A DNA stretch of 64,000 nt, taken from positions 4,278,001 through 4,342,000 of the forward strand of contig NZ_CP011125.1 of the NCBI RefSeq assembly GCF_000737325.1, given 5' to 3'. A program made the position numbers and the translations under genes. Each line of letters starts with the position of its first letter. Positions within the stretch are counted from its first letter, which is position 1. The notes under the pieces are model-generated. The model saw nothing but the letters and a program-made list of their open reading frames with translations, did no database searches and was not told the DNA's origin. Below, one piece after another: positions 27,995 through 42,876 of this stretch. Source of the stretch: Sandaracinus amylolyticus (lineage in GTDB: Bacteria; Myxococcota_A; Polyangia; Polyangiales; Sandaracinaceae).

Positions 27995-28034
27995 ACGAGC
28001 CCGCGAGGAGAGCGCTCCTCGCGGGCTCGTTCGT
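27995..28034. terminator. Bidirectional terminator between convergent genes
   Basis: ACGAGCCCGCGAGGAG (27995-28010), loop AGCG, CTCCTCGCGGGCTCGT (28015-28030): a 16-bp perfect stem. It lies between the Cys-rich lipoprotein (+, ends 27972) and the hypothetical gene (-, ends 28038), with TCGTTTCT on the plus side. Confidence 0.65.
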
Positions 28035-28037
28035 TTC

Positions 28038-28670
28038 TCAGTGCGCGAGCGCGACGAACGCGACGTCGTCGTCCCCGAGCCGCATCACCACGAACAGCAT
28101 CGGACCGACCTCGGTCTCGACCGCGACGACGCTCGGCGCGCGCACGATCACGAGACCACCGCGGTGCGCGATCACCAGGCCGCGCGCCTCGTCGCCCATC
28201 CGCATGCGCAGCGCGAGCCCGTGCGCGACGCGATCCTCGGGGAGCTCGCCGTCGTGCGTCCACAGCACGAGCGCGCCGTCGTCGCGGTCGCGCACACGCG
28301 CGTCCACGGTGCAGCGACCCGCGTGGAGGCGCTCTTCGAGCTCGAGCGAGACGTCGTGGCCTGCGAGCGCGCGCAGCTCGAGCGCCGCGGGCAGCAGGTG
28401 TCGCACGCGCGCCGGGAACCCCGCGTGCTCCACGGTGAAGCCTTGCGGCCCCACGTCGCCGACGCGTCCCGCGAGGCGCGTCTGGAGCGCGATTGCGCCG
28501 TCCGCGGAGCGGCGCGTGCGCGACGCCCCCGGAGGTGCGTGCTCGACGCCCACGTACGCGACCGTCGAGTCGACCGCGTCGCGAGCGAAGGAACCGCGGT
28601 CGAAGGGGAGCACGAGACGCTCCCGGGCGCGCTCCACAGGGGTCATGCCCGAGGAATCAGCATTCGTCAT
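28038..28670 (-). CDS. Hypothetical protein, beta-rich
   Basis: 210 aa from ATG 28670; ATG 28646 is equally possible and neither has a clear ribosome site. The sequence alternates short hydrophobic strands and charged turns and has no signal, membrane segment or Cys cluster. The middle (VEHAGFPARVRHLLPAALE) and the C-terminal GPMLFVVMRLGDDDVAFVAL are the most conserved-looking parts. A PilZ-like beta-barrel was considered, but the RxxxR and D/NxSxxG motifs are not found. No function is assigned. Confidence 0.65.
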   Translation of the reverse strand: MTNADSSGMTPVERARERLVLPFDRGSFARDAVDSTVAYVGVEHAPPGASRTRRSADGAIALQTRLAGRVGDVGPQGFTVEHAGFPARVRHLLPAALELRALAGHDVSLELEERLHAGRCTVDARVRDRDDGALVLWTHDGELPEDRVAHGLALRMRMGDEARGLVIAHRGGLVIVRAPSVVAVETEVGPMLFVVMRLGDDDVAFVALAH

Positions 28671-28781
28671 GCCACGAGGGACCCTCGCGCAAACGGCGCG
28701 TGTCACCCCGATGACCGGGACGCGCGTGTCATGGCGGCTGCAGTGGGTGGAGGGGCGAACACGCGCACCCACGTGCGCCCT

Positions 28782-28810
28782 TTGACTCCGGGGAACGGGA
28801 AGGGTACACG
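28782..28810 (+). promoter_or_regulatory. Promoter of scpA-scpB
   Basis: TTGACT (28782-28787), 17-bp spacer, TACACG (28805-28810). It gives a leader of about 35 nt before ATG 28852 and is the best sigma70-like promoter in this part of the window. Confidence 0.6.
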
Positions 28811-28851
28811 GACCCGCTCGTCGTCGCGCGATCGCGTGCACGAGCCCCGCG

Positions 28852-30750
28852 ATGTCGTCGTCCTCGTCGTCCACGCCCGAGCCGCTGGATCCGAACTTCC
28901 AGCTCAAGCTGCCGAGCTTCGAGGGGCCGCTCGATCTGCTTCTGCACCTCTGCCAGAAGCACGAGCTCGACATCGTGAACCTGCCGGTCGCGTTCGTGAC
29001 CGAGCGCTACCTCGAGTACATCCGCGTGATGGAGAGGCTCGACCTCGACATCGCGAGCGAGTACCTCGTGATGGCGGCGACCCTCGCGCACATCAAGAGC
29101 AAGTCGCTGCTGCCGCCGGATCCCGCGGCCGAAGCGGAAGAGAGCGCGGACGAAGAAGAGATCGACCCGCGCCAGGAGCTCATCCGGCGGCTGCTCGAGT
29201 ACCAGAAGTACAAGGCGGCTGCGGAGGACCTCGGCGCGCGCGGCGTGCAGGGCCGCGACGTGTTCTTGCGCGGGATGGAGGCGCCGGAGGCGACGGGGCC
29301 GGCGGCGCTCGCGGGCGTCGGGCTGTTCAAGCTGCTCGACGCGTTCCAGGCGGTGCTGAAGCGCGCGAAGCAGGACCTCGCGTTCCAGATCACCGCCGAG
29401 GGCGTGAGCATCCAGGACCGCATGTCGCAGCTCGCGGAGCGACTGCGGACGAAGCGGCGCTGCACGTTCGACGAGCTCTTCGACGACGTGAAGTCGATGT
29501 ACGACGTCGTCGTGACGTTCCTCGCGATCCTCGAGATGGCGAAGCGACGTCTGGCGCGCGTGTATCAGAGCGAGCCGATTGCGCCGATTCACCTCGAGTA
29601 TCGCGTGCTCGACGCGGACGGGAACGAGGAGAGCGCGAGCGCCGAGGAGACGAGCGCGTCGGATCCCGGGAGCGAGCGCGCGCCGGATGCCGACGAGGCT
29701 GTCGCGAGTGTCGCGGCGGCCGAGTCGGTGATCGAGAACGTTGCGGAGGCGGTCGAAGAACCCTCGGCAGTCGACGAAGCCTCGGCAGTCGAAGAAGCCT
29801 CGGCAGTCGAAGAAGCCTCGGCAGTCGACGAAGCCTCGGCAGTCGAAGAAGCCTCGGCAGTCGAAGAGGCCTCGGCGGTCGAAGAGGCCTCGGCGGTCGA
29901 AGAGGCCTCGGCGGTCGAAGAGGCCTCGGCGGTCGAAGAGGCCTCGGCGGTCGAAGAGGCCTCGGCGGTCGAAGAGGCCTCGGCGGTCGAAGAGGCCTCG
30001 GCGGTCGAACGCGCCTCGGCAGTCGACGAAGCCTCGGCGGTCGAAGAAGCCTCGGCAGTCGAAGAAGCCTCGGCAGTCGAACGCGCCTCGGCAGTCGACG
30101 AAGCCTCGGCAGTCGACGAAGCCTCGGCAGTCGAACGCGCCTCGGCAGTCGAACGCGCCTCGGCAGTCGAAGAAGCCTCGGCAGTCGAAGAAGCCTCGGC
30201 AGTCGAACGCGCCTCGGCAGTCGAACGCGCCTCGGCCGTCGAAGAAGCCTCGGCCGTCGAAGAAGCCTCGGCCGTCGAAGAAGCCTCGGCCGTCGAAGAA
30301 GCCTCGGCCGTCGAAGAAGCCTCGGCCGTCGAAGAAGCCTCGGCGGTCGAAGAAGCCTCGGCCGTCGAAGAAGCCTCGGCCGTCGAAGAAGCCTCGGCAG
30401 TCGAAGAAGCCTCGGCACTCGAAGAAGCCTCGGCCGTCGAAGAAGCCTCGGCGGTCGAAGAAGCCTCGGCGGTCGAAGAAGCCTCGGCGGTCGAAGAAGC
30501 CTCGGCGGTCGAAGAAGCCTCGGCGGTCGAAGAAGCCTCGGCCTTCGAAGAAGCCTCGGCAGTCGAGAGCCCGACGGACCTCTCGATCGGCGAGACCGGC
30601 TCGGATGCGGTGAGCGCGTCCGATGACCACACCGCGCACGCGCTCGAGCCCGAGCTCGACGCGCCCGACGACGAGCTCGCGCTCCTTGATTCCGACCGCG
30701 ACGTTGCGCACGATCCGCGCCCCGCCGAGCCCGAGACCCCCGAATCATGA
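28852..30750 (+). CDS. scpA: Condensin subunit ScpA with a 264-residue SAVEEA repeat tail
   Basis: 632 aa against about 250-280 for typical ScpA. Residues about 15-260 are a normal kleisin: [19 protein letters not shown] and [18 protein letters not shown] at the N-terminus (binds the SMC neck) and a C-terminal winged-helix region with TFDELFDD and [14 protein letters not shown]. After an acidic linker, residues 305-568 are 44 tandem copies of SAV(E/D)(E/R)A, followed by a 60-residue acidic end. ScpA bridges SMC heads with ScpB. The tail is strongly acidic and probably disordered. ATG 28852 is preceded by a promoter; the stop overlaps scpB by 4 nt. Confidence 0.9.
29764..30555 (+). repeat. 18-bp in-frame tandem repeat, 44 units, inside scpA
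   Basis: Exactly 44 units of 18 bp (TCGGCAGTCGAAGAAGCC and variants). The Ala codon is GCA, GCG or GCC in contiguous blocks (GCG mainly about 29876-30010, GCC mainly about 30234-30390), and GAAGAA is replaced by GACGAA or GAACGC in clusters. This points to repeated block duplication. Because 18 is a multiple of 3, copy-number change keeps the frame. No stop occurs in any of the six frames, which creates long false frames on both strands. Confidence 0.97.
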
Positions 30751-32267
30751 GCCGCCCGCGCAAGCGAAAGCCCCGCTCCGGGCAAGACGACGTGAGCACC
30801 GACGAGGGCGTCGACACGAGCGCTGCCGAAGAGACCCCGCTCTCGCCGGACGACCAGGACGTCGTGAACGCGGTCGACGAGGTCGCGGACGCGATCGTCG
30901 CGCGCGTGCTCGCGGAGGCGAGCGCAGTCGAAGACTCCGAGGGCGACGAGCTCGTGCCGGACGCGGACGCGTCGAGCCCCGACGCCGAGCCGCTCGAGAC
31001 CACTTCGGACGAGGAGAGCGCGCCGGCGAGCCACGTCGAGACCGACGCGCCGACGGACACCGACGCGGATCTCGCGCCGGTCGACCCCGCGCTCGCGCGC
31101 GCGCTGGGCCTCGACGAAGCGAGCGGCGACGAGAGCGCCACGCTCCCCGGCGAAGACACCGAGGATCGACCGGGCCTCGAGAAGGCCCCGCCGCTCTCGG
31201 TGGGCGCGGATCACCTGAAGGGCGTGATCGAGAGTCTGCTCTTCGTGAGCGACAAGCCGCTTGCTGCGAACCGCATCGCGAAGATCGCGGGCTCGACGAC
31301 GAAGGAAGTGCAGCGTCTGCTCGATCTGCTCATCGAGGACTATCGCGGTCGCGGCATCGAGCTGATCGAGGTCGCGGGTGGGTTCCAGTTCCGCTCCGCC
31401 GCCGCGAATGCGCCGTTCGTGCGCGAGCTCGTCGCGCGCAAGCCGGTCCGCCTCACGCGCGCACAGGTCGAGACGCTCGCGATGATCGCGTATCGGCAGC
31501 CGATCACGCGTCCCGAGGTCGACGAGATCCGCGGTGTCGACTCCGGCTCTGCGATGAAGGTCCTGCTCGAGAAGAACCTCGTGAAGATCATCGGACGCAA
31601 GGACGAGCCCGGACGGCCGCTGCTCTACGGCACGACGCCGTATTTCCTCGAGTTCTTCGGGCTCGCGTCGCTCTCGGATCTCCCGACGCTGAAGGAGTAC
31701 TCGGAGCTCAACGAGGAGAGCCGCGCGCTCTTCCAGCGCCGCACGGGCGAGGCGATCGAGGGCATCGCCGACATCGCGGTGGAGAAGCGCGAGTACTCGG
31801 ACGAAGAGCTCGAAGAGGCCGCGAAGGAGCTCGACGGAGAGGTCGCGGAGCGAGCGCGCGCGGAGCAGCTGGAGCTCGGGACCGACCGCGCCGCCGAGGA
31901 CGAGCCCGCGGCGGAGCGCGAGGAAGAGCTCGCGTCGCGCGCGGACGCCGAGTCGGACGACGAAGAAGACGACGACTCGGACGAAGACGACGACTCGGAC
32001 GAAGACGACGACTCGGACGAAGACGACGACTCGGACGAAGACGACGACTCGGACGAAGACGACGACTCGGACGAAGACGACGACTCGGACGAAGACGACG
32101 ACGACGACTCGGACGAAGACGACGACTCGGACGAAGACGACGATTCGGACGAAGACGACGATTCGGACGAAGACGACGATTCGGACGACGACGACGATTC
32201 GGACGACGACGACGATTCGGACGACGACGACTCGGACGACGACGACGACGACGACGACGACGACTGA
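30747..32267 (+). CDS. scpB: Condensin subunit ScpB with long acidic N-terminus and Asp/Ser/Glu tail
   Basis: 506 aa against about 180-260 for typical ScpB. Residues 1-150 are an acidic, low-complexity extension. Residues about 150-345 are the tandem winged-helix ScpB core ([71 protein letters not shown]). Residues 408-506 consist only of Asp, Ser and Glu, mostly DDDSDE hexads. ScpB binds ScpA and regulates SMC ATPase heads. ATG 30747 overlaps the scpA stop (ATGA), so the two are coupled and made in fixed ratio. Confidence 0.92.
31968..32264 (+). repeat. 18-bp in-frame Asp/Ser/Glu repeat at the 3' end of scpB
   Basis: About 15 units based on GACGACGACTCGGACGAA encode a 99-residue tail of D, S and E only. 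One unit is enlarged by two Asp codons, and the last units drift to DDDSDD, then pure Asp. The period equals that of the scpA array although the sequence is unrelated. Confidence 0.95.
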
Positions 32268-32317
32268 TCGCTCGTCAGCCTCTGCTCGGCATTTCTCTTC
32301 TGCACTCCACGGACACC

Positions 32318-33247
32318 ATGAAGACCTTCCAGGAGCTGATCCTCGCACTCCAGCGGTTCTGGGCGGACCGCGGCTGCCTCATCGTGCAGCCCTACAACTC
32401 CGAGGTCGGCGCCGGTACGTTCAATCCCGCGACCTTCCTGCGCGCGATCGGCCCCGAGCCGTGGAACGTCGCGTACGTCGAGCCCTCGCGCCGTCCGACC
32501 GATGGTCGCTACGGCGAGAACCCGAATCGACTGCAGCAGTTCCACCAGTTCCAGGTGATCCTCAAGCCGTCGCCGCTCGACATCCAGGAGCTCTACGTCG
32601 AGTCGCTCCGCGCGATCGGCACCGACCCGAGCAAGCACGACATCCGCTTCATCGAGGACGACTGGGAGTCTCCGACGCTCGGCGCGTGGGGCCTCGGATG
32701 GCAGGTCTGGCTCGACGGCCTCGAGATCTCGCAGTTCACGTACTTCCAGCAGGTCGGCGGCATCGACTGCAAGCCGATCAGCGGTGAGCTCACCTACGGG
32801 CTCGAGCGCATCGCGATGTACCTGCAGGACAAGGACGACATCTACTCGGTCGAGTGGGGCGGCGGCATCAAGTACGGAGAGATCGCCAAGCGCCAAGAGT
32901 GGGAGTGGTCCACCTACAACTTCGAGCGCGCCGACGTGCCGCTGCACTTCGAGCTCTTCGATCGCTTCGAGGACCAGTGCCACCAGCTCCTCGGCCTCGC
33001 GAAGAAGAAGGAGAAGGGCAATCAGCTCGTCTTCGAGATCGAGGACCCGCTGCAGCGACTCGTGCTCCCCGCCTACGACTGCGTCGTGAAGTGCAGCCAC
33101 TACTTCAACGTGCTCGACGCGCGCGGCGCGATCAGCGTGACCGAGCGACAGCGCTACATCGGTCGCGTGCGACACATCGCGCGCGCAGTGTGCGAGTCGT
33201 ATTACGCGCAGCGCGAGAAGCTCGGCTTCCCGCTGATCGCCAAGTGA
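32318..33247 (+). CDS. glyQ: Glycyl-tRNA synthetase alpha subunit
   Basis: 309 aa, standard for the alpha chain of the bacterial heterotetrameric GlyRS. It contains the class II catalytic core: [49 protein letters not shown], and motif 3 in [15 protein letters not shown]. It binds glycine and ATP; the beta chain recognises tRNA. It starts 50 nt after scpB, without a strong terminator between them, and is followed by glyS 16 nt later. Confidence 0.96.
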
Positions 33248-33263
33248 TCGGAGCAGACGAGTC

Positions 33264-35330
33264 ATGACTGCGCATCTCCTGCTCGAGATCGGCACCGAAG
33301 AGCTCCCCGCCTCGTTCGTCGCGAAGGCGCTGAAGGAGCTACCGGGCATCCTCACGCAGCTGCTCGATCACGCGCGCATCGGGCACGGCTCCGCGTCGTC
33401 GTACGGCACGCCGCGACGGCTCGCGGTGCTGGTGAACGACGTCGCGGATCGTCAGACCGACCTCGAAGAAGAAGTGCTCGGCCCGCCGAAGGCCGCGGCC
33501 TTCGAGGCGGACGGTCGACCGAAGAAGGCGGCCGAGGGCTTCGCGAAGAAGAACGGCATCGCGGTCGATCAGATCCGCGTCGTCACGACCGACAAGGGCG
33601 AGTACGCGGCGGTCACGCGTCGCGAGACCGGCCGTGCCGCGAGCGAGGTGCTGCCCGCGATCCTCGCCGATGCGATCGCGAAGATCCCGTTCCCGAAGTC
33701 GATGCGCTGGGGGCAGGGCGACGTCGCGTTCGGACGCCCGGTGCACTGGCTCGTCGCGCTGCACGGCAAGCACGCGATCGCGACGCAGTTCGCGGGCATC
33801 GCGTCGGGCACGCGCACCCGCGGCCATCGCTTCCTCGCCGCGCGCGAGATCGAGATCCCCGAGGCCGGCGCGTACCTCGCGATCCTGCGTGATGCGCACG
33901 TGCTCGCCGACGAGCGCGAGCGTCGTCGCGTGATGATCGAGCGCCTCGAAGCGAAGGCGCGCGAGATCGGCGGCGATCTCGTGCCCGACGAGTTCCTCGT
34001 CGAGGAGAACGCATCGCTCGTCGAGGAGCCGCACGTCATCGCGGGCTCGTTCGAAGAGGCGTATCTCTCGCTGCCCGACGAGGTGATCGTCGCGGTGATG
34101 CGCGGTCACCAGCGCTACTTCGCGGTGAAGGCGAAGGGCGCGGATCGTTTGATGCCGCGCTACCTCGCGGTCGTGAACACCGCGCTCGATCCCGCGACCG
34201 TCACGAACGGCAACGATCGCGCGCTGCGCCCGCGGCTCGCGGACGCTCGCTTCTTCGTCGAGACCGATCGCCAGACGCCGCTCGCGGCTCGCGTCCCGAA
34301 GCTCGACGGCATCGTGTTCCAGGCGAAGCTCGGGAGCGTGGGCGAGAAGACGGTGCGCGTCGGCGAGCTCGCCGCCCGTCTGTCGAACGACGGTCGCGCG
34401 GTGAAGGCCGCACCGCTCGCGAAGGCGGATCTCGTCACGCTGATCGTCGGCGAGTTCCCGGAGCTGCAGGGCCTGATGGGCCGCTGGTACGCGCAGCAGC
34501 AGGGCGTCGAGCCCGACGTCGCCGACGCGATCCGCGATCACTACCTGCCGAAGTCCGCGAGCGATGCGGTGCCCTCCGCGCCGCTCTCCGCGGCGCTCTC
34601 GATCGCGGATCGCGCGGACACGCTCGTCGGCTGCTTCGGCATCGGCATCGTGCCCACCGGCGGCGCCGATCCGTTCGCGCTGCGTCGTGCCGCGCTCGCG
34701 ATCGCGCGCACCGCGCTCGAGGGCCCGATCGACGTCGATCTGCGCGACGTGCTCGCCGCGGCGTGGAGGGCGTACGACGCGCAGGGCAAGAAGCTGAGCG
34801 CGAAGGACGAGGTGCTCGCGAAGCTCGACGAGTTCTTCCGCACGCGCCTGCGCGGTCTGCTCTCGGAGCAGCAGGGCCACCCGGTCGATCTCGTCGACGC
34901 GTGCCTCGGCGCGTGGGAAGGGCGCTCGATCCGCGACCTCGCCGCGCGCGTCCGCGCGCTCGCCGAGCTGCGCAAGATGCCCGCGTACGAGTCGCTCGCG
35001 GTCGCGTTCAAGCGCGCTTACAACATCGCGAAGGACGCGCCGAGCGGCGATCCCGATCCCGCGCTCTTCGATCACGAGGCGGAGCGCGCGCTCGCCGCGC
35101 GCTTCTCGGAGATTCGATCGCGCGTCGAGAGCGCGACGCAGTCGGGCGACTACGTCGCGGCGCTCACGCTCGTCGCGAAGGAGCTGCGCGAGCCGATCGA
35201 TCGCTTCTTCGACCAGGTGTTCGTGATGGTCGACGACACGAAGGTGCGCGACAACCGACTGCGCCTGCTCGGCGCGATCGCGCGCACGATGACGCGCATC
35301 GCGCACTTCCATCTGCTCGGCGGGGCGTGA
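33264..35330 (+). CDS. glyS: Glycyl-tRNA synthetase beta subunit
   Basis: 688 aa, full length. The N-terminus LLLEIGTEELPASF is the family signature. RWGQGDVAFGRPVHWLV and EGVRRHQRYF-like VMRGHQRYFAVK are also seen, followed by the HD-like region (SIADRADTLVGCFGIG) and a C-terminal anticodon-binding domain ending DNRLRLLGAIARTMTRIAHF. Its stop is 1 nt before the next gene, giving a tight glyQ-glyS-PPDK-like operon. Confidence 0.96.
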   Translation: MTAHLLLEIGTEELPASFVAKALKELPGILTQLLDHARIGHGSASSYGTPRRLAVLVNDVADRQTDLEEEVLGPPKAAAFEADGRPKKAAEGFAKKNGIAVDQIRVVTTDKGEYAAVTRRETGRAASEVLPAILADAIAKIPFPKSMRWGQGDVAFGRPVHWLVALHGKHAIATQFAGIASGTRTRGHRFLAAREIEIPEAGAYLAILRDAHVLADERERRRVMIERLEAKAREIGGDLVPDEFLVEENASLVEEPHVIAGSFEEAYLSLPDEVIVAVMRGHQRYFAVKAKGADRLMPRYLAVVNTALDPATVTNGNDRALRPRLADARFFVETDRQTPLAARVPKLDGIVFQAKLGSVGEKTVRVGELAARLSNDGRAVKAAPLAKADLVTLIVGEFPELQGLMGRWYAQQQGVEPDVADAIRDHYLPKSASDAVPSAPLSAALSIADRADTLVGCFGIGIVPTGGADPFALRRAALAIARTALEGPIDVDLRDVLAAAWRAYDAQGKKLSAKDEVLAKLDEFFRTRLRGLLSEQQGHPVDLVDACLGAWEGRSIRDLAARVRALAELRKMPAYESLAVAFKRAYNIAKDAPSGDPDPALFDHEAERALAARFSEIRSRVESATQSGDYVAALTLVAKELREPIDRFFDQVFVMVDDTKVRDNRLRLLGAIARTMTRIAHFHLLGGA

Positions 35331-35331
35331 C

Positions 35332-36993
35332 GTGCAGTTCCTCGTCGTGCCCGGCGCTGGTGCTCCGGCCGACGTCGCGCGCGTCGGCGCGAAGGCCGCG
35401 GGGCTGATCGACGCGTCGAACGAAGGGCTGCCCGTGCCGCCCTTCTTCGTGCTCTCGATCGATCTCTTCCGCGCCTGGCGCGCGACCGGCGCGCTCCCGG
35501 CCGAGCTCGACGCGGAGCTCGATGCGGGCCTGGAGCACCTCGCGCGCGCGACCGGGAAGCGCCTCGGAGACGCGAGCGCGCCGCTGATCGTCAGCGTGCG
35601 ATCGGGCGCGCCGGTCTCGATGCCCGGCATGCTGGACACGCTGCTCGACGTGGGCGCGACGAGCGCGAGCGTCGACGGCCTCGCGGCGCAGCTCGGCGAT
35701 CGGGCGGTCGCGCTCGACGTGCGCCGTCGCTTCCTCGAGTCGTGGGGCGCGGTCGTCGGTCGCCTCTCGCGCACGCGCTTCGATCCGCGCGCCGGCGTTC
35801 GTGTCGCGGCACGCGCGACCACGCCTCCGCCGCCGATCACGCCTGCCGATCTCGAGGCGAAGATCGCGCGCCACGAGCAGACGCTGCGCGAGGCCGGCGT
35901 GCTCCCGCCCGACGACGCGCGCGCGCAGCTGCGCATGGCGATCGAGGCGATCCTCGCGTCGTGGGATCGCGATCGCGCGCGCGACTTCCGCGCGACGCAG
36001 CGCATCGACGACGCGCTCGGCACGGCGGTCGTCGTGCAAGCGATGGTGTTCGGCAACGCGAGCGGCGCGTCGGGCAGCGGCGTCGCGTTCACGCGGCACC
36101 CGGTCACCGGCGAGAAGCACCTCTTCGGCGAGTACCTGCCGCGCGTGCAGGGCGACGAGGTCGTCGGCGGTCGCGCGTCGCCGGCGGGGCTCTCGGCCGC
36201 AGCGTCGGGACGTCGCGCCGCGGAGAGCCTCGAGCGGCAGAGCCCGACGGCGTTCGCCGACCTCGAGCGCATCGCGATGGCGCTCGAGGCGCGCTACGGC
36301 GACGCACAGGATCTCGAGATCACGGTCGAGCACGGCACGCTGTGGCTGCTGCAGGTGCGCACCGCGAAGCGCTCGCCGCGCGCCGCGATCCGTGTCGCGG
36401 TCGATCTCGTTCGCGAGGGGCGCATCGATCGCGAGACCGCGCTCGCGCGTCTCGATCCGCGCGCGATCGACGCGCTCGTGTCGCGCGCGCTGCCGCCCGA
36501 CGATCAGCTGCCCGAGCCTCCGCTGACGATCGGCGTGCCCGCGAGCCCGGGCGCGGTCTCCGGACGTGCCGTCTACGATCCCACCGCCGCGGTCGAGCTC
36601 GCGGCGCGGGGCGAAGCTGCGATCTTGATCCGTCCCGAGTGCAGCCCCGAGGACGCGCCCGGGATCCGCGCCGCGGCGGGCGTCCTCACGTCGTCGGGTG
36701 GGCTCACCTCGCACGCGGCGGTGATCGCGCGCGCGCTCGGCCGCCCGTGCATCGTCTCGGCGAGCGAGGTGCGTGTCGACGTCGATCACGCGTACGCCGA
36801 GGTGCGCCGGCCTGCGGGCGTGGTGGTGCCGGTGCCCGAGACGATCACCCTCGACGGCGCGACGGGCCGCGTGTTCGCGGGCGCGCTCCCCCTCGCGACG
36901 ACGTTCGCGCTGCCCGAAGCGCGTGAGGTGCTCGAGTGGGCGCGCGACCTCGCCACGCCGGGCTGGGAAGACGCGATCGCCCGCCTGCTGTAA
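35332..36993 (+). CDS. Two-domain PPDK relative lacking the C-terminal PEP/pyruvate domain
   Basis: 553 aa from GTG 35332; full pyruvate, phosphate dikinase is about 880 aa. The N-terminal nucleotide-binding domain is present (VRSGAPVSMPGMLDTLLDVG from residue 89, FTRHPVTGE, LQVRTAKRSP), and so is the swivelling phosphohistidine domain with GGLTSHAAVIARALG (H461). The TIM-barrel PEP/pyruvate-binding domain is missing and no remnant follows in 275 bp. It could phosphorylate its own histidine from ATP and pass the phosphate to another protein, or be a degraded PPDK. I recall ppdK next to glyQS in some other Deltaproteobacteria. It is coupled to glyS (1 nt gap). Confidence 0.85.
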   Translation: MQFLVVPGAGAPADVARVGAKAAGLIDASNEGLPVPPFFVLSIDLFRAWRATGALPAELDAELDAGLEHLARATGKRLGDASAPLIVSVRSGAPVSMPGMLDTLLDVGATSASVDGLAAQLGDRAVALDVRRRFLESWGAVVGRLSRTRFDPRAGVRVAARATTPPPPITPADLEAKIARHEQTLREAGVLPPDDARAQLRMAIEAILASWDRDRARDFRATQRIDDALGTAVVVQAMVFGNASGASGSGVAFTRHPVTGEKHLFGEYLPRVQGDEVVGGRASPAGLSAAASGRRAAESLERQSPTAFADLERIAMALEARYGDAQDLEITVEHGTLWLLQVRTAKRSPRAAIRVAVDLVREGRIDRETALARLDPRAIDALVSRALPPDDQLPEPPLTIGVPASPGAVSGRAVYDPTAAVELAARGEAAILIRPECSPEDAPGIRAAAGVLTSSGGLTSHAAVIARALGRPCIVSASEVRVDVDHAYAEVRRPAGVVVPVPETITLDGATGRVFAGALPLATTFALPEAREVLEWARDLATPGWEDAIARLL

Positions 36994-37268
36994 CGGCCCA
37001 AAGCTCGCGGCCATCCAGAGGTCGGATGCGCGGCGCCATTCGGCCGTTCCGGCGTCGCTGCAATCAGGAACCCACGCTTGACGCACCAAGCACCGTCTGG
37101 AACGCTCGTCTCGGCCGTTCGAGTCGCGTGCGCGTCGCGTGAATCGAGAATGGGGCTCGGCCGTACATCCGTCGTGTCGAGTCCCGCGTAGAGATCTCGC
37201 GCGTCGCACGCGTACATCGTTCGGGGCGCGCTTCTCCTTCGAACGCTTCATCGACACCGGGTGGCGGA
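36994..37268. other. Intergenic region before the PEGA kinase
   Basis: 275 bp with no gene, tandem repeat or strong hairpin. A TTGACG at about 37079-37084 could be a -35, but no convincing -10 follows at 16-18 bp. The kinase start at 37269 also lacks a strong ribosome site. Confidence 0.4.
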
Positions 37269-38969
<1,701 letters not shown>

Positions 38970-38983
38970 GTCGGTGTTCGCAG

Positions 38984-38989
38984 TAGGGT
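38984..38989 (+). promoter_or_regulatory. Putative -10 (TAGGGT) for lipoprotein pair
   Basis: TAGGGT ends 9 nt before ATG 38999, between the kinase stop (38969) and the lipoprotein start. Confidence 0.3.
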
Positions 38990-38998
38990 CCGCGCCTC

Positions 38999-40396
38999 AT
39001 GCGGGCGGAGCGCTGCGGCATCGGAAACGCCGCGACCATCACAGTCTTCGCGATCGCGATCGCCGGGTGTGACCTCGACAACCCCGGGGTGCCGCTGCCC
39101 GCGGCGACGTTGAACTTCCCGATCGCGCTCGCGGTGGTCGACGGCGCGCCCGAGACGAACGACGACGACTACCTGCTCGTCGTCAGCTCGAACTTCGACG
39201 TGCGCTACGCGTCGGGCTCGGTGCAGTCGTGGCGCCTCGCCGAGCTCCAGACCGCGATCGACGACGCGGTGGCGGGCGTCGACGACCTCGGCGTCGACTG
39301 CGGCGAGGACGGTCGCCCCGCGTGCGAGATCCAGATCGAGGAGCGCCCCGAGGTCTTCCTCCAGGACGAAGTGCGCATCCCGTCGCACGCCGACGGGATC
39401 GCGGTCGGGCCTTCGGAGGATCGCATCTACCTCCCGGTGCGCAGCGGGCGCGGCGGGCTCACGTGGATCGATCTCGCGGACGGCCTCTTCGGCTGCGGCG
39501 AGGGCGATGCGTGCGACGACCTCCACAACACCGTCGCGGTCGCGCCGGTGTCGCGCGAGCTCTCGCTCCCGACCGATCCCGTCGCGCTCGCGGTGGTCCC
39601 GCGCGACCTCGTGGGAGGCGGCGACGCGGACGCGATCGTGATCGCGCACCGCAACGGCTCGGGCAGCCTGCTGCTCGACGACCTGCGCGGTCAGCCGACG
39701 CTGTTCGACGTGATCGACGGGCTGCCGACCGACGTGGTCAGCGCCGAGATGGATCCCGAGAGCGGCGCAGTGTGGCTGACGAGCGCGCCGCCGAGCTCGC
39801 GCCCGACGCGCGATCTCGTCGCGGTCGCACCGATCGTGTCGGACGTCGACACGCGCCTCGCGGTGGTGAACCGCATCACGCTCGCGGGGCTGGACGACGG
39901 AGGCACGGGATCGGATACGCGAGACATCGCGTTCGACGTCGGCGTCGATCGCGCGTGGGTGCTCGCGCGTCGGCCCGAGGCCGTGATCACCGTCGACTTC
40001 CGCGTGCCGCCGGTCGCGCCGAACCTCGCGCCGCTCGGTGAGATCTTCGCGGTCGCGTCCGGGCCCTCGCGGCTCGAGCGCGTCGTGGTGCCGTTCGATC
40101 CCGATGGCGACGAAGGGCCGATCCCCGCGCGCGAGCGCACGTATCTCCTCGCGAGCTGCTACGACGCGAACAACGTCTCGGTCATCGATCCCGAGCTCGG
40201 GCTGATCGCCACGGTCGCGGGGCTCGCGGGCCCGTTCGAGATGGCGTACGACGCAACGCGGGAGCTGCTGTTCGTCATCAACTTCCGCAACAACACGATC
40301 GGGGTCGTCGACCTCTCGCCGCTCCGCACCGGCGCGTCTCCGCGGCTGATCGCGTACCTCGGTGATCCCGACGCGCCCAGCCCGTTCTCTGGATGA
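38999..40396 (+). CDS. Lipoprotein with YVTN-like beta-propeller features
   Basis: 465 aa. The signal ends ATITVFAIAIAGC with lipobox I-A-G-C at about residue 24. The mature protein has repeated strand-turn patterns typical of beta-propellers: HADGIAVGPSEDRIYLPV, DPVALAVVPRD, DANNVSVIDPELGLIATV and PFEMAYDATRELLFVINF. The last resembles YVTN repeats (VIDxxxxxVxxTIxxG). It probably binds a ligand at the cell surface. Its stop overlaps the start of the next lipoprotein by 4 nt, so the two are made together and may form a complex. Confidence 0.8.
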   Translation: MRAERCGIGNAATITVFAIAIAGCDLDNPGVPLPAATLNFPIALAVVDGAPETNDDDYLLVVSSNFDVRYASGSVQSWRLAELQTAIDDAVAGVDDLGVDCGEDGRPACEIQIEERPEVFLQDEVRIPSHADGIAVGPSEDRIYLPVRSGRGGLTWIDLADGLFGCGEGDACDDLHNTVAVAPVSRELSLPTDPVALAVVPRDLVGGGDADAIVIAHRNGSGSLLLDDLRGQPTLFDVIDGLPTDVVSAEMDPESGAVWLTSAPPSSRPTRDLVAVAPIVSDVDTRLAVVNRITLAGLDDGGTGSDTRDIAFDVGVDRAWVLARRPEAVITVDFRVPPVAPNLAPLGEIFAVASGPSRLERVVVPFDPDGDEGPIPARERTYLLASCYDANNVSVIDPELGLIATVAGLAGPFEMAYDATRELLFVINFRNNTIGVVDLSPLRTGASPRLIAYLGDPDAPSPFSG

Positions 40397-42876
40397 AGCG
40401 AGCTTCCGCCGTGCGCCTCAAGGTCGTTCCCGCGCTCCTCCTCGCGCTCTGCGGCGCTTGCACGCAGGCCGTCAACGTCGCGCCGCCGCGCGCGTTCAAC
40501 CGCCCGGCGCGCATCGAGCTCGTGTGCTTCGACGGCGATCGTCCGGTCGCGCAGAGCGAGTGCGCGAGCGGCAGCGGCGCCGGCGAGCGGACGCTGCTCG
40601 CGCTCGTGACGCAGCAGACGCGCGGCGAGGTCGCGGCGGTCGATCTCAGCGCCGATCCGCCAGTGGTGATCGACAGCGATCGCCGCGTGCCCGGCTTCAC
40701 GTTCGTCGAGGTCGGCGAGGTGCCGGTCGGGCTCGCGGTGTCGCGTCGCAATCCGCTGTGCACGTGGGTCGCGAACCGTGGATCGAGCAGCCTCTCGGCC
40801 GTGGAGACGGCGCGCTTCCGCGAGGAGTCGCTCGGCACCGGGATGGCCACCGAGGAGCTCTCGCTCGCGGGCGAGGGGCGCACCGGTCGGCCGAACGCGC
40901 TGGTGATCCACGACGACGGCGCGACGAGCGAGCTCTACGTGACGCTCCCGGACGACGGCGTGATCGGGCGCGTGCCGGTGACGTCGGACGACACCGGTTG
41001 CCACTTCGGCGCGCTCGAGATCATCCCGCTGCCCGACGCGCTCCCGGTCGCGCCCACGGAGCCGTCGTCGGATCCGACGCTCGGCGAGACGACCGATCCC
41101 CCGCAGGACGCGGCCACGCTCGCGCTGTGCGCCGCGACGGGCCTGACGCTCCCCGAGCTCGCCACGCCGCCCCCGACGGTGGTCGTCGAGACCGATCCCG
41201 ATCCGCTGCCCGCGCCGCAGCCGCTCGAGATCGAGGTCGCGCGCGACGACGACGGCGACGCGATCGCGCTGCTGATCGGCGACGCCGCGCGCTCCGTCAT
41301 CTATCGCTACGACCTCGCGACGCGCGCGTTCGCCGACGGGATCCGCACCGACGGTCCGATCCTCGATCTGACGCTCACGCCGCCGGTGCCGGACCGGCTC
41401 GACACGCCGTCGGCCACGCGCCGGTACGTGTACGCGATCGACGCGCGCGACGGCTCGGTGATGGTGATCGACGAGGCGGCGCGACAGCTCGTGCCCGTCG
41501 CGGCGGAGTCGACCGGGCGCGTGCTGCGCGTGCCGTTCCGCGCGCCGGCGCGCGCGATCGCGACGATCGATCGCCGCGGCGCGGGCGGGATCTGCGACTA
41601 CGACGACGCGACGATCGATCCGTCCGCGAACAACCTGCGCGGCGTGTTCGTGTCGGTTGCGCTCTCCGACGGCTCGTTGCGGTACATCGACGTTCTCGAC
41701 GAGGACGCGACGTGCCGCAGCGGGACCGACTGCCAGAACTCGTTCCAGGGCGGGCAGGAGTACTCGTTCATCCGCCGTCATCGCCCGCGCATCGCGACGC
41801 GCGTGGCCGACCCGGTGTCGCTCACCGAGTCGCCGGTCGCGTCGGTCTCGGGCTCGACGCTGCGCTTCTCGGCCTCGGGCTCGGTGCCCGACGAGGATGC
41901 GGTCCCGAGCTTTCTGTCGAACCCCTGCGCCGACCCCGACGGCATCGCGCCGGTGTTCGGCGCGCCGAACCCGTTGATCTGCACGTCGACCGATCCCTGG
42001 ACCGCGGCCGCCGAGTCGTGGGCGCTGACGTGGCAGGGCGTGATCCCGAGCACCGCGAGCATCGCGGGCAATTTCCGCACGCTCGACGACGGTCGGATCG
42101 CGCTCGAGACGCGCATCCCGTTGTGCGAGCGCGGCGTGCTCGGCCCCGAGGGCGCCGCAGGCCTGACCGAGGCCGATCCCGAGTTCATGTACCCCGGTGA
42201 TCTCGTCGCGATCACCGCGGAGCTGCCCGACGCGACCGCCGACGATCCCGAGTGCCGCGCGCTCGCGGGCGTCGACGAGGGCGAGACGCCCGAGGCGCTC
42301 CTGGTGCGGATCGCCGAGGTGCGCGCCGGCGAGGCGGGCGGCGTGCGCTCGCCGTACGCCTCGGCGATCGTGCTCGAGCCCGACGCGGAGGTGCTCGATC
42401 GCGCGGGCGCGAACGTCGAGCTGCTGCTGCGTTGCTACCAGGACCAGCTCGTCTCGTTCGACGTGCGGGTGTTCGATCGGTACGCGGTCGTCGGCTCGCG
42501 CACCGGGTTCGCGCACCGCGTGGTCGTGAGCGACGCGGGCAACTGCGTGGTGGAGACGACGCAGGACCCCACGCTCAGCGCGCGCGCCGAGCTCGGCGTG
42601 CCGTACGAGGGGCCGAGCCTGCGCTTCACGCTCGACTTCACGCGCGCGCGTCCCGCGGTGATCGTCGATCAGGCGATCACGTTCGACGTGGGCGACGTGC
42701 CGTCGCAGCTCGCGACGGATCTCGGCGCACTGCCGCAGGGCGGTCGCACGCTCACGCTCCCGACCGAGGTGTCGTTCAGCGCGCTGACGGACCGTCTCTA
42801 CGCGCTCGACGAGCTGCGCCGTGGGCTCGTGGTGATCGAGCTCGAGCCGGTGAGGCCCGAGTTCTTCATCGAGTAG
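40393..42876 (+). CDS. Large lipoprotein, beta-propeller-like, partner of the upstream lipoprotein
   Basis: 827 aa from ATG 40393, overlapping the previous stop (ATGA). The signal MKRASAVRLKVVPALLLALC runs into a lipobox C-G-A-C near residue 23. The early region resembles its neighbour (PVGLAVSRRNPLCTWVANRG, RPNALVIHDDGATSELYVTLP, RYVYAIDARDGSVMVID), again a propeller pattern. The C-terminal half is unrecognised, with scattered Cys (C-rich TCRSGTDCQN). Coupling and similarity suggest duplication followed by divergence and a shared surface complex. Mutual specificity is inference. Confidence 0.78.
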   Translation: MKRASAVRLKVVPALLLALCGACTQAVNVAPPRAFNRPARIELVCFDGDRPVAQSECASGSGAGERTLLALVTQQTRGEVAAVDLSADPPVVIDSDRRVPGFTFVEVGEVPVGLAVSRRNPLCTWVANRGSSSLSAVETARFREESLGTGMATEELSLAGEGRTGRPNALVIHDDGATSELYVTLPDDGVIGRVPVTSDDTGCHFGALEIIPLPDALPVAPTEPSSDPTLGETTDPPQDAATLALCAATGLTLPELATPPPTVVVETDPDPLPAPQPLEIEVARDDDGDAIALLIGDAARSVIYRYDLATRAFADGIRTDGPILDLTLTPPVPDRLDTPSATRRYVYAIDARDGSVMVIDEAARQLVPVAAESTGRVLRVPFRAPARAIATIDRRGAGGICDYDDATIDPSANNLRGVFVSVALSDGSLRYIDVLDEDATCRSGTDCQNSFQGGQEYSFIRRHRPRIATRVADPVSLTESPVASVSGSTLRFSASGSVPDEDAVPSFLSNPCADPDGIAPVFGAPNPLICTSTDPWTAAAESWALTWQGVIPSTASIAGNFRTLDDGRIALETRIPLCERGVLGPEGAAGLTEADPEFMYPGDLVAITAELPDATADDPECRALAGVDEGETPEALLVRIAEVRAGEAGGVRSPYASAIVLEPDAEVLDRAGANVELLLRCYQDQLVSFDVRVFDRYAVVGSRTGFAHRVVVSDAGNCVVETTQDPTLSARAELGVPYEGPSLRFTLDFTRARPAVIVDQAITFDVGDVPSQLATDLGALPQGGRTLTLPTEVSFSALTDRLYALDELRRGLVVIELEPVRPEFFIE

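Follow-up and report, generated by a model that had tools for sequence, protein, structure and literature searches.

VadK (Mtb Rv1127c) is a kinase of mycobacteria and related genera derived from pyruvate, phosphate dikinase (PPDK), and was described in 2025-2026 (PMC13400623). VadK is reported to autophosphorylate His422 when supplied with ATP and Mg and to act on the methylcitrate cycle, by a mechanism presented as a working model built largely on structure prediction; the authors report no separate gene for the pyruvate/PEP domain (PMC13400623). A second set of related systems comprises HpeHI, CreHI, PpsAB, and rifampin phosphotransferase (RPH), in which ATP-grasp and swiveling histidine modules serve acceptors other than pyruvate, and PMC12167813 describes dikinases with these same two modules and phenolic acceptors.

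Here we analyze a gene within 64,000 nucleotides of Sandaracinus amylolyticus (NZ_CP011125.1, positions 4,278,001 to 4,342,000), referred to below as the window, from a genome that consists of a single 10,327,335-base contig. An earlier note on this DNA had described the gene as a PPDK relative that lacks its PEP/pyruvate domain and is coupled to glyQS, and had proposed that it might be a phosphotransfer device rather than a metabolic dikinase. A search of one literature collection for truncated PPDK, for ppdK with glyS, and for PPDK in myxobacteria returned nothing on this locus. The gene encodes a genuine two-domain derivative of PPDK that is conserved and belongs to a type already known through VadK; the loss of its barrel is old, probably occurred in place, and extends across the host family.

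A Conserved Two-Domain PPDK Derivative

Pfam identifies PPDK_N and the PEP-utilizers mobile domain in the 553-residue protein and gives no PEP-utilizers_C match (Table 1). Comparisons with full-length PPDK likewise end before the barrel, as the earlier note had read from the sequence. The TIGR01828 match covers positions 18-525 of 865 (463.7 bits, below the cut-off of 843.45), and residues 24-533 of maize PPDK (1vbg) align with residues 18-539 of the query (E 1.6e-102). An AlphaFold2 model, built from 36 sequences comprising the window protein and relatives from the similarity search, has a mean pLDDT of 92 and a pTM of 0.91. Residues 2-553 of C. symbiosum PPDK (1kbl) superpose on this model (Z 45.1, rmsd 2.1 Å, 519 residues aligned), indicating that the protein keeps two of the three domains of PPDK, and the PPDK phosphoryl carrier domain (2fm4) aligns with model residues 388-520. 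The protein also matches NF004531 (PRK05878), a 534-position NCBIfam model named pyruvate, phosphate dikinase, nearly end to end (13-541 to 21-483), with a score slightly below the curated cut-off (433.3 versus 456 bits).

The two remaining domains are intact, in agreement with the earlier description. H461, within the motif GGLTSHAAV, and K21, R90, E329, Q341, and R343 are all invariant in the 36-row alignment. We take the latter five to be the equivalents of K22, R92, E323, Q335, and R337 in C. symbiosum numbering. Residues R561, R617, E745, N768, and C831, which belong to the PEP/pyruvate barrel of PPDK, have no counterpart in the alignment of the short protein. No barrel was detected at E 1e-4 within 1.5 kb on either side of the gene, and no remnant was found past the stop codon; a barrel continuing 3' of the stop codon in another frame was likewise sought, not found, and rejected. 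The annotation "pyruvate, phosphate dikinase" should not be taken here to mean conversion between pyruvate and PEP.

Table 1. Coordinates of the features discussed in the text (positions in the window unless a locus is given)
Feature	Position	Strand	Evidence and remarks
scpA	28852..30750	+	SMC_ScpA, E 7.1e-36; member of conserved gene order
scpB	30747..32267	+	Pfam; member of conserved gene order
glyQ, glycyl-tRNA synthetase alpha subunit	32318..33247	+	Pfam
glyS, glycyl-tRNA synthetase beta subunit	33264..35330	+	Pfam; stop codon one base before short PPDK start
Short PPDK-family gene	35332..36993	+	553 aa; GTG start; stop codon 36991-36993
ATP-grasp (nucleotide-binding) domain	35332..36381	+	Residues 1-350; K21, R90, SMPGM loop, E329, Q341, R343 kept
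Swiveling phosphohistidine domain	36505..36891	+	Residues about 392-520; Pfam, AlphaFold2 model, structural match
Predicted phosphohistidine H461 codon (GGLTSH)	36712..36714	+	Motif and alignment
Last 33 residues and stop codon	36892..36993	+	Ends where the PEP/pyruvate barrel of full-length relatives begins
Serine/threonine protein kinase gene	37269..38969	+	Pfam; downstream neighbor of short, eroded, and full-length ppdK
~650-aa protein upstream of short PPDKs of the second group	L101:3007-4947, L102:2941-4896, L112:2999-4939, L068:2105-4036, L081:2977-4920, L062:3069-4982, and nine more loci		

Between the host and genome G002, which carries a short copy in the same gene order, dN/dS is 0.144 over the whole gene (49.5 nonsynonymous and 112.5 synonymous differences, 550 codons), so the protein is kept. 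The phosphohistidine domain has the lowest ratio of four parts (0.091), with 0.138 for the ATP-grasp domain and 0.391 for the last 33 residues. The glyS genes of the same pair give a dN/dS of 0.168 over 499 codons, and the short PPDK diverges faster than glyS (dN 0.043 versus 0.026; dS 0.297 versus 0.155). It also changes faster than the full-length PPDK of these two genomes, for which pN is 0.0127 and pS 0.120.

Genomic Neighborhood

The short gene follows scpA, scpB, glyQ, and glyS and precedes a protein kinase gene and two further frames, at 38999 and 40393, that have no Pfam match. No prpC or prpD methylcitrate genes occur among these neighbors, and no Rfam family was found within positions 28000-42000. 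The 275-base spacer that separates the short PPDK gene from the kinase gene (36994-37268) matches its G002 counterpart at 260 of 274 bases, and the pS of the gene is 0.245; this stretch, more alike than the synonymous sites of the gene, is possibly a conserved promoter region. The frames of scpA and scpB both end in long low-complexity stretches, with EEASAV units in the former (29700-30750) and DDDSDE units in the latter (31900-32267).

Adjacency to glyS was noted from the start and stands, although it does not carry the functional meaning the word coupling might imply. A census drawn from up to 30 best matches per search found ppdK beside glyS on the same strand at 49 whole-genome loci, with 37 full-length, four short, and six intermediate copies and two cut by contig ends. 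One of the six (L136) was rejected as an intermediate, having only a masked stretch, which leaves five, all in the host family. Eleven more glyS-linked loci in the similarity-search set (best 80 of 106) are all full-length and come from Alphaproteobacteria (ten) and Chloroflexi (one). The glyQS coupling is ancestral, and because it is mostly seen with full-length genes (37 of 49 among best matches) it was rejected as a clue to function.

Inferred Loss of the Barrel at a Fixed Locus

The gene order scpA-scpB-glyQ-glyS-ppdK-protein kinase-two genes recurs, whole or as far as covered, among the 17 neighborhoods compared. Within this order, the ppdK copy is short in G001, G002, and G010 and eroded in G003, G005, G006, G007, and G009. 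Full-length ppdK occupies the same position with the kinase side present in G012 and G053, and with the upstream side only found in G043, G016, and G011. In G004 the contig ends within the neighborhood, and G014, G190, and G234 showed no glyS close to ppdK. Within the host family, a glyS-linked copy is present in nine of ten genomes, and in the tenth (G008) fragments alone matched. Eight of these copies can be read to the end: three are short, all from the host genus, five are eroded, and none is full-length. The open frame is intact in all three genomes of the host genus, where the more distant copy L005 keeps the nucleotide-site residues and the histidine at 56-57% identity to the window protein.

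Measured from where the window protein ends, the eroded copies continue for another 141-158 residues (L126 for 79), versus about 330 for full-length PPDK. Their tails keep an FGADGIAV-like start and, in L006, L007, L010, and L019, a PLDVPVGRL-like end, a last barrel motif that was matched by eye and with MAFFT rather than hhalign, while the catalytic middle is gone. Pfam scans of L006, L010, and L019 returned PPDK_N and the mobile domain, with PEP-utilizers_C unmatched even at E up to 10. A profile of four eroded tails matches intact barrels with an hhalign probability of 94.9, versus at most 1.31 for 20 column-shuffled controls; part of this signal stems from the linker before the barrel. Two glyS-linked copies from two sister genera depart further: L126 lacks the SMPGM loop and the equivalents of R337 and D321, yet keeps GGLTSHAAV, and L129 also lacks the SMPGM loop and is cut by a contig end before the histidine motif. 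An eroded barrel is also seen in L071, from a different lineage of Myxococcales, where it reaches 143 residues past the query end with ATP and histidine sites kept; the closely related L072 runs off its contig.

A short copy at the glyS locus also occurs outside the host family, in a genome from another family of the same order (G010; L029, L184) that is 3.3 Mb in size and 98% complete. Of the eight genomes searched, it alone failed to match PEP-utilizers_C up to an E of 1, and it apparently encodes no PtsI, PPDK, or PEP synthase. Two others, G007 and G001, have, besides the eroded or short PPDK, two other barrel proteins only.

Together, synteny, tree, and intermediates suggest that the gene would descend from a full-length ppdK that followed glyQ-glyS in the host order of Myxococcota, and that barrel erosion would have started in the ancestor of the host family, with the barrel gone in the host genus. 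Synteny and the intermediate forms carry more of the argument for loss in place than the tree does, since an approximately unbiased (AU) test does not reject a single clade of short forms (see below). A full-length gene at this locus in close relatives had been named as a sign of recent degradation; in other families full-length orthologs do occupy this position, yet throughout the host family the barrel is lost or eroded, and the loss is not recent. The fixed genomic address makes full-length, half-eroded, and barrel-free versions directly comparable, along with the short copy of G010, a genome in which no PEP domain was detected.

Phylogeny and Origins of Short Forms

Homologs of the same length are widespread, as the earlier note had asked to be checked: 33 of 79 non-duplicate loci carry short forms among the best 80 of 106 in the similarity search, a set chosen by similarity to the query and thus not a fair sample of nature. 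In a quick tree of 93 rows, the host family falls within a set of 19 rows, 18 of them glyS-linked (SH-aLRT 100), and apart from three other groups of short PPDKs. The first group (14 rows) is mostly actinobacterial, the second (15 rows) spans Proteobacteria, Planctomycetes, Actinomycetota, and Anaeromyxobacter, and the third (three rows) is of the Mycobacterium type. A careful tree of 45 rows, which leaves out L129 and L126, the latter having a very long branch in the quick tree, groups the host family's short rows with its eroded ones (95/88) and places the two actinobacterial groups as sisters (87/89), so the separate origins may be fewer than in the quick tree.

Placing all 18 short rows in one clade gives an AU test p of 0.101 (0.095 without L029), and grouping the host genus with L029 gives 0.197. 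Neither the trees nor synteny favor one origin for every short form, but the AU test does not reject it (p-AU 0.10). We give about an even chance to the view that PPDK has been cut back repeatedly and independently to a two-domain core, which would make this a recurring route from enzyme to phosphotransfer protein, with the myxobacterial family showing the route in progress at one locus, from a full barrel through an eroded one that lacks the active site to none.

Short PPDKs of other groups have neighborhoods of their own. Directly upstream of the second group, on the same strand, lies a conserved protein of ~650 residues (Table 1), present in 14 rows of the 15-row clade and in L103, which is not in the tree; it is partial at a contig end in L090, and L110 has no upstream sequence. 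Its C-terminus resembles PhoU/DUF47, above the Pfam cut-off in two of four proteins scanned and with a TM score of 0.84 to 3l39 by target length, and no Pfam family reaches its cut-off elsewhere in the protein. This PhoU-like protein is a likely partner or acceptor of the 15-row clade. A homolog is absent from seven genomes of the host order, the host included, in a search whose positive control, Anaeromyxobacter oryzae, was found. Among the neighbors scanned for the mycobacterial short PPDKs L105 (five) and L207 (four), none is a methylcitrate gene. Near the Mycobacterium short PPDK, on the opposite strand and one frame away, is a 540-residue frame that ends in a mobile domain (L207:3495-5114), and adjoining the Nocardia short PPDK, on the same strand, is a 609-residue frame that also ends in one (L208:4374-6200); both recall HpeH of the two-component dikinases.

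Barrel and Mobile-Domain Proteins of the Host

The window gene is not the only PPDK of the host, a point on which the earlier picture fails: a full-length PPDK (913 residues, 40% identical over the shared part) is encoded elsewhere in the genome. Three frames of the host, 628, 913, and 904 residues long, match PEP-utilizers_C above its cut-off, and in none does the domain stand alone. The 628-residue frame, which also has a mobile domain, is read as PtsI, and the 904-residue frame is a PEP-synthase-like protein. The check for a stand-alone PEP/pyruvate domain that had been proposed for this genome gave none above the cut-off of 22.8; a 325-residue frame has a weaker match (15 bits; 15.5 on the frame scan).

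Five mobile-domain matches exceed the cut-off, namely PPDK, the PEP-synthase-like protein, the PtsI-like protein, a 938-residue frame with PPDK_N, and the short PPDK itself, so no lone mobile-domain partner appears above cut-off in the genome. Two weaker matches are a 65-residue frame and a 574-residue GAF protein (L213:1848-3569; G000:C1:6468847-6470568), in which the second half of the domain scores 17.6 bits versus a cut-off of 23.1 and the GG-TSH histidine motif was not found in the partial match.

Proposed Function

The remaining protein would be an ATP-grasp kinase joined to a swiveling phosphohistidine domain. As in the first half-reactions of PPDK, ATP-Mg would phosphorylate H461, and the phosphohistidine domain would then swing to an acceptor supplied in trans, which may be a protein or a small molecule and would not be pyruvate. 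The precedents of VadK and the HpeHI type make such autophosphorylation and transfer in trans plausible (PMC13400623, PMC12167813). On balance, we consider the product probably an ATP-dependent histidine autokinase with a non-pyruvate acceptor and a regulatory role, and hold this with modest confidence. Domain content, the kept active-site residues, purifying selection, full-length orthologs at the locus, and the lack of any stand-alone PEP domain scoring above cut-off in the host all support this reading, and G010 adds a natural case, its copy at the locus being short and its genome giving no match to PEP-utilizers_C. The proposal of a phosphotransfer device that does not act on pyruvate, made from the sequence alone, thus persists as the best-supported reading, with the VadK precedent in its favor and phosphotransfer itself deduced. 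No candidate acceptor emerged, as the host has neither a lone mobile domain scoring above cut-off nor a PhoU-like homolog. The copies without ATP-site motifs, L126 and L129, count against the autokinase, as may the statement that PPDK is active only as a dimer (PMC5556012).

The loss of ATP-site motifs in L126 and L129 also implies that the host family may not need kinase activity everywhere, and part of the family may keep the short protein for another reason. Extended to the window gene, this becomes the idea of a remnant, either non-catalytic or moonlighting, that persists because it binds or scaffolds (e.g., beside GlyRS or the downstream kinase) while its enzyme features disappear. The family-wide erosion, with the barrel eroded in five and absent in three of eight readable copies, and the faster divergence from G002 than that of glyS (in both dN and dS) fit this idea, but the host genus keeps every listed nucleotide-site residue and the histidine, even in the distant L005, and among the four parts compared dN/dS is lowest in the phosphohistidine domain. 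We regard a remnant as unlikely, while granting it serious weight. Full-length orthologs at the same locus in other families could instead suggest a pseudogene or a recently broken gene. The whole-gene dN/dS of 0.144, the open frame throughout the host genus, the family-wide extent of the loss, and the sequence after the stop codon, where no barrel remnant was found, make this hardly credible, and a recent pseudogene was rejected.

Other readings would leave the protein a dikinase by recruiting a second protein. It might be a small-molecule dikinase of the HpeHI/PpsAB kind with its acceptor-binding part encoded separately, since the known two-component dikinases split the ATP-grasp domain from the swivel and acceptor site (PMC12167813). 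HpeI (9goj) matches the model, with a Z of 15.2 and an rmsd of 5.4 Å over 248 residues, and the frames with C-terminal mobile domains near the Mycobacterium and Nocardia short PPDKs point the same way. However, the short PPDK carries its own swivel domain, unlike HpeI, none of the five above-cut-off mobile-domain matches in the host is a lone domain, and the GAF protein lacks GG-TSH in its partial match; we consider this arrangement quite improbable. A split PPDK, passing its phosphate to the barrel of PtsI, PEP synthase, or the second PPDK and still making PEP, would have three barrel-bearing proteins to choose from in the host, a genome that already has a complete PPDK. The glyS-linked short copy of G010 sits in a genome with no PEP-utilizers_C match, and G007 keeps its eroded copy and shows no second PPDK, with only two other barrel proteins there and in G001. 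A trans-acting split PPDK is consequently very improbable as a general role.

Comparison with Known Systems

Full-length PPDK (TIGR01828; 1kbl, 1vbg) shares with the short PPDK its first ~530 residues, the fold, the nucleotide-site residues, and the phosphohistidine motif, and differs in having the PEP/pyruvate barrel. The two-domain length is that of NF004531 / PRK05878, just under whose threshold the short PPDK falls. HpeHI, CreHI, PpsAB, and RPH have an ATP-grasp and a swiveling histidine domain as the short PPDK does, but use another acceptor domain, which in RPH and HpeH is of the rifampin-binding type. HpeHI also places its swivel in the other chain, whereas the short PPDK carries its own.

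VadK and the short PPDK are alike in that both proteins have ATP-binding and phosphohistidine domains without the pyruvate/PEP domain. The two differ in setting, VadK lying by methylcitrate-cycle genes and the window gene within scpAB-glyQS, and the window gene groups with the full-length and eroded ppdK genes of its own order (Rv1127c itself is not in the data and not among the tree rows). Because it lacks the neighborhood of VadK and groups with the eroded copies of its own family, the window gene is best called a VadK analog, with a single origin of the short forms not rejected (p-AU 0.10). The locus makes the question of how a metabolic dikinase becomes a phosphotransfer protein testable with a few purified orthologs, and it reaches a VadK-like two-domain form at a different locus, with visible intermediates.
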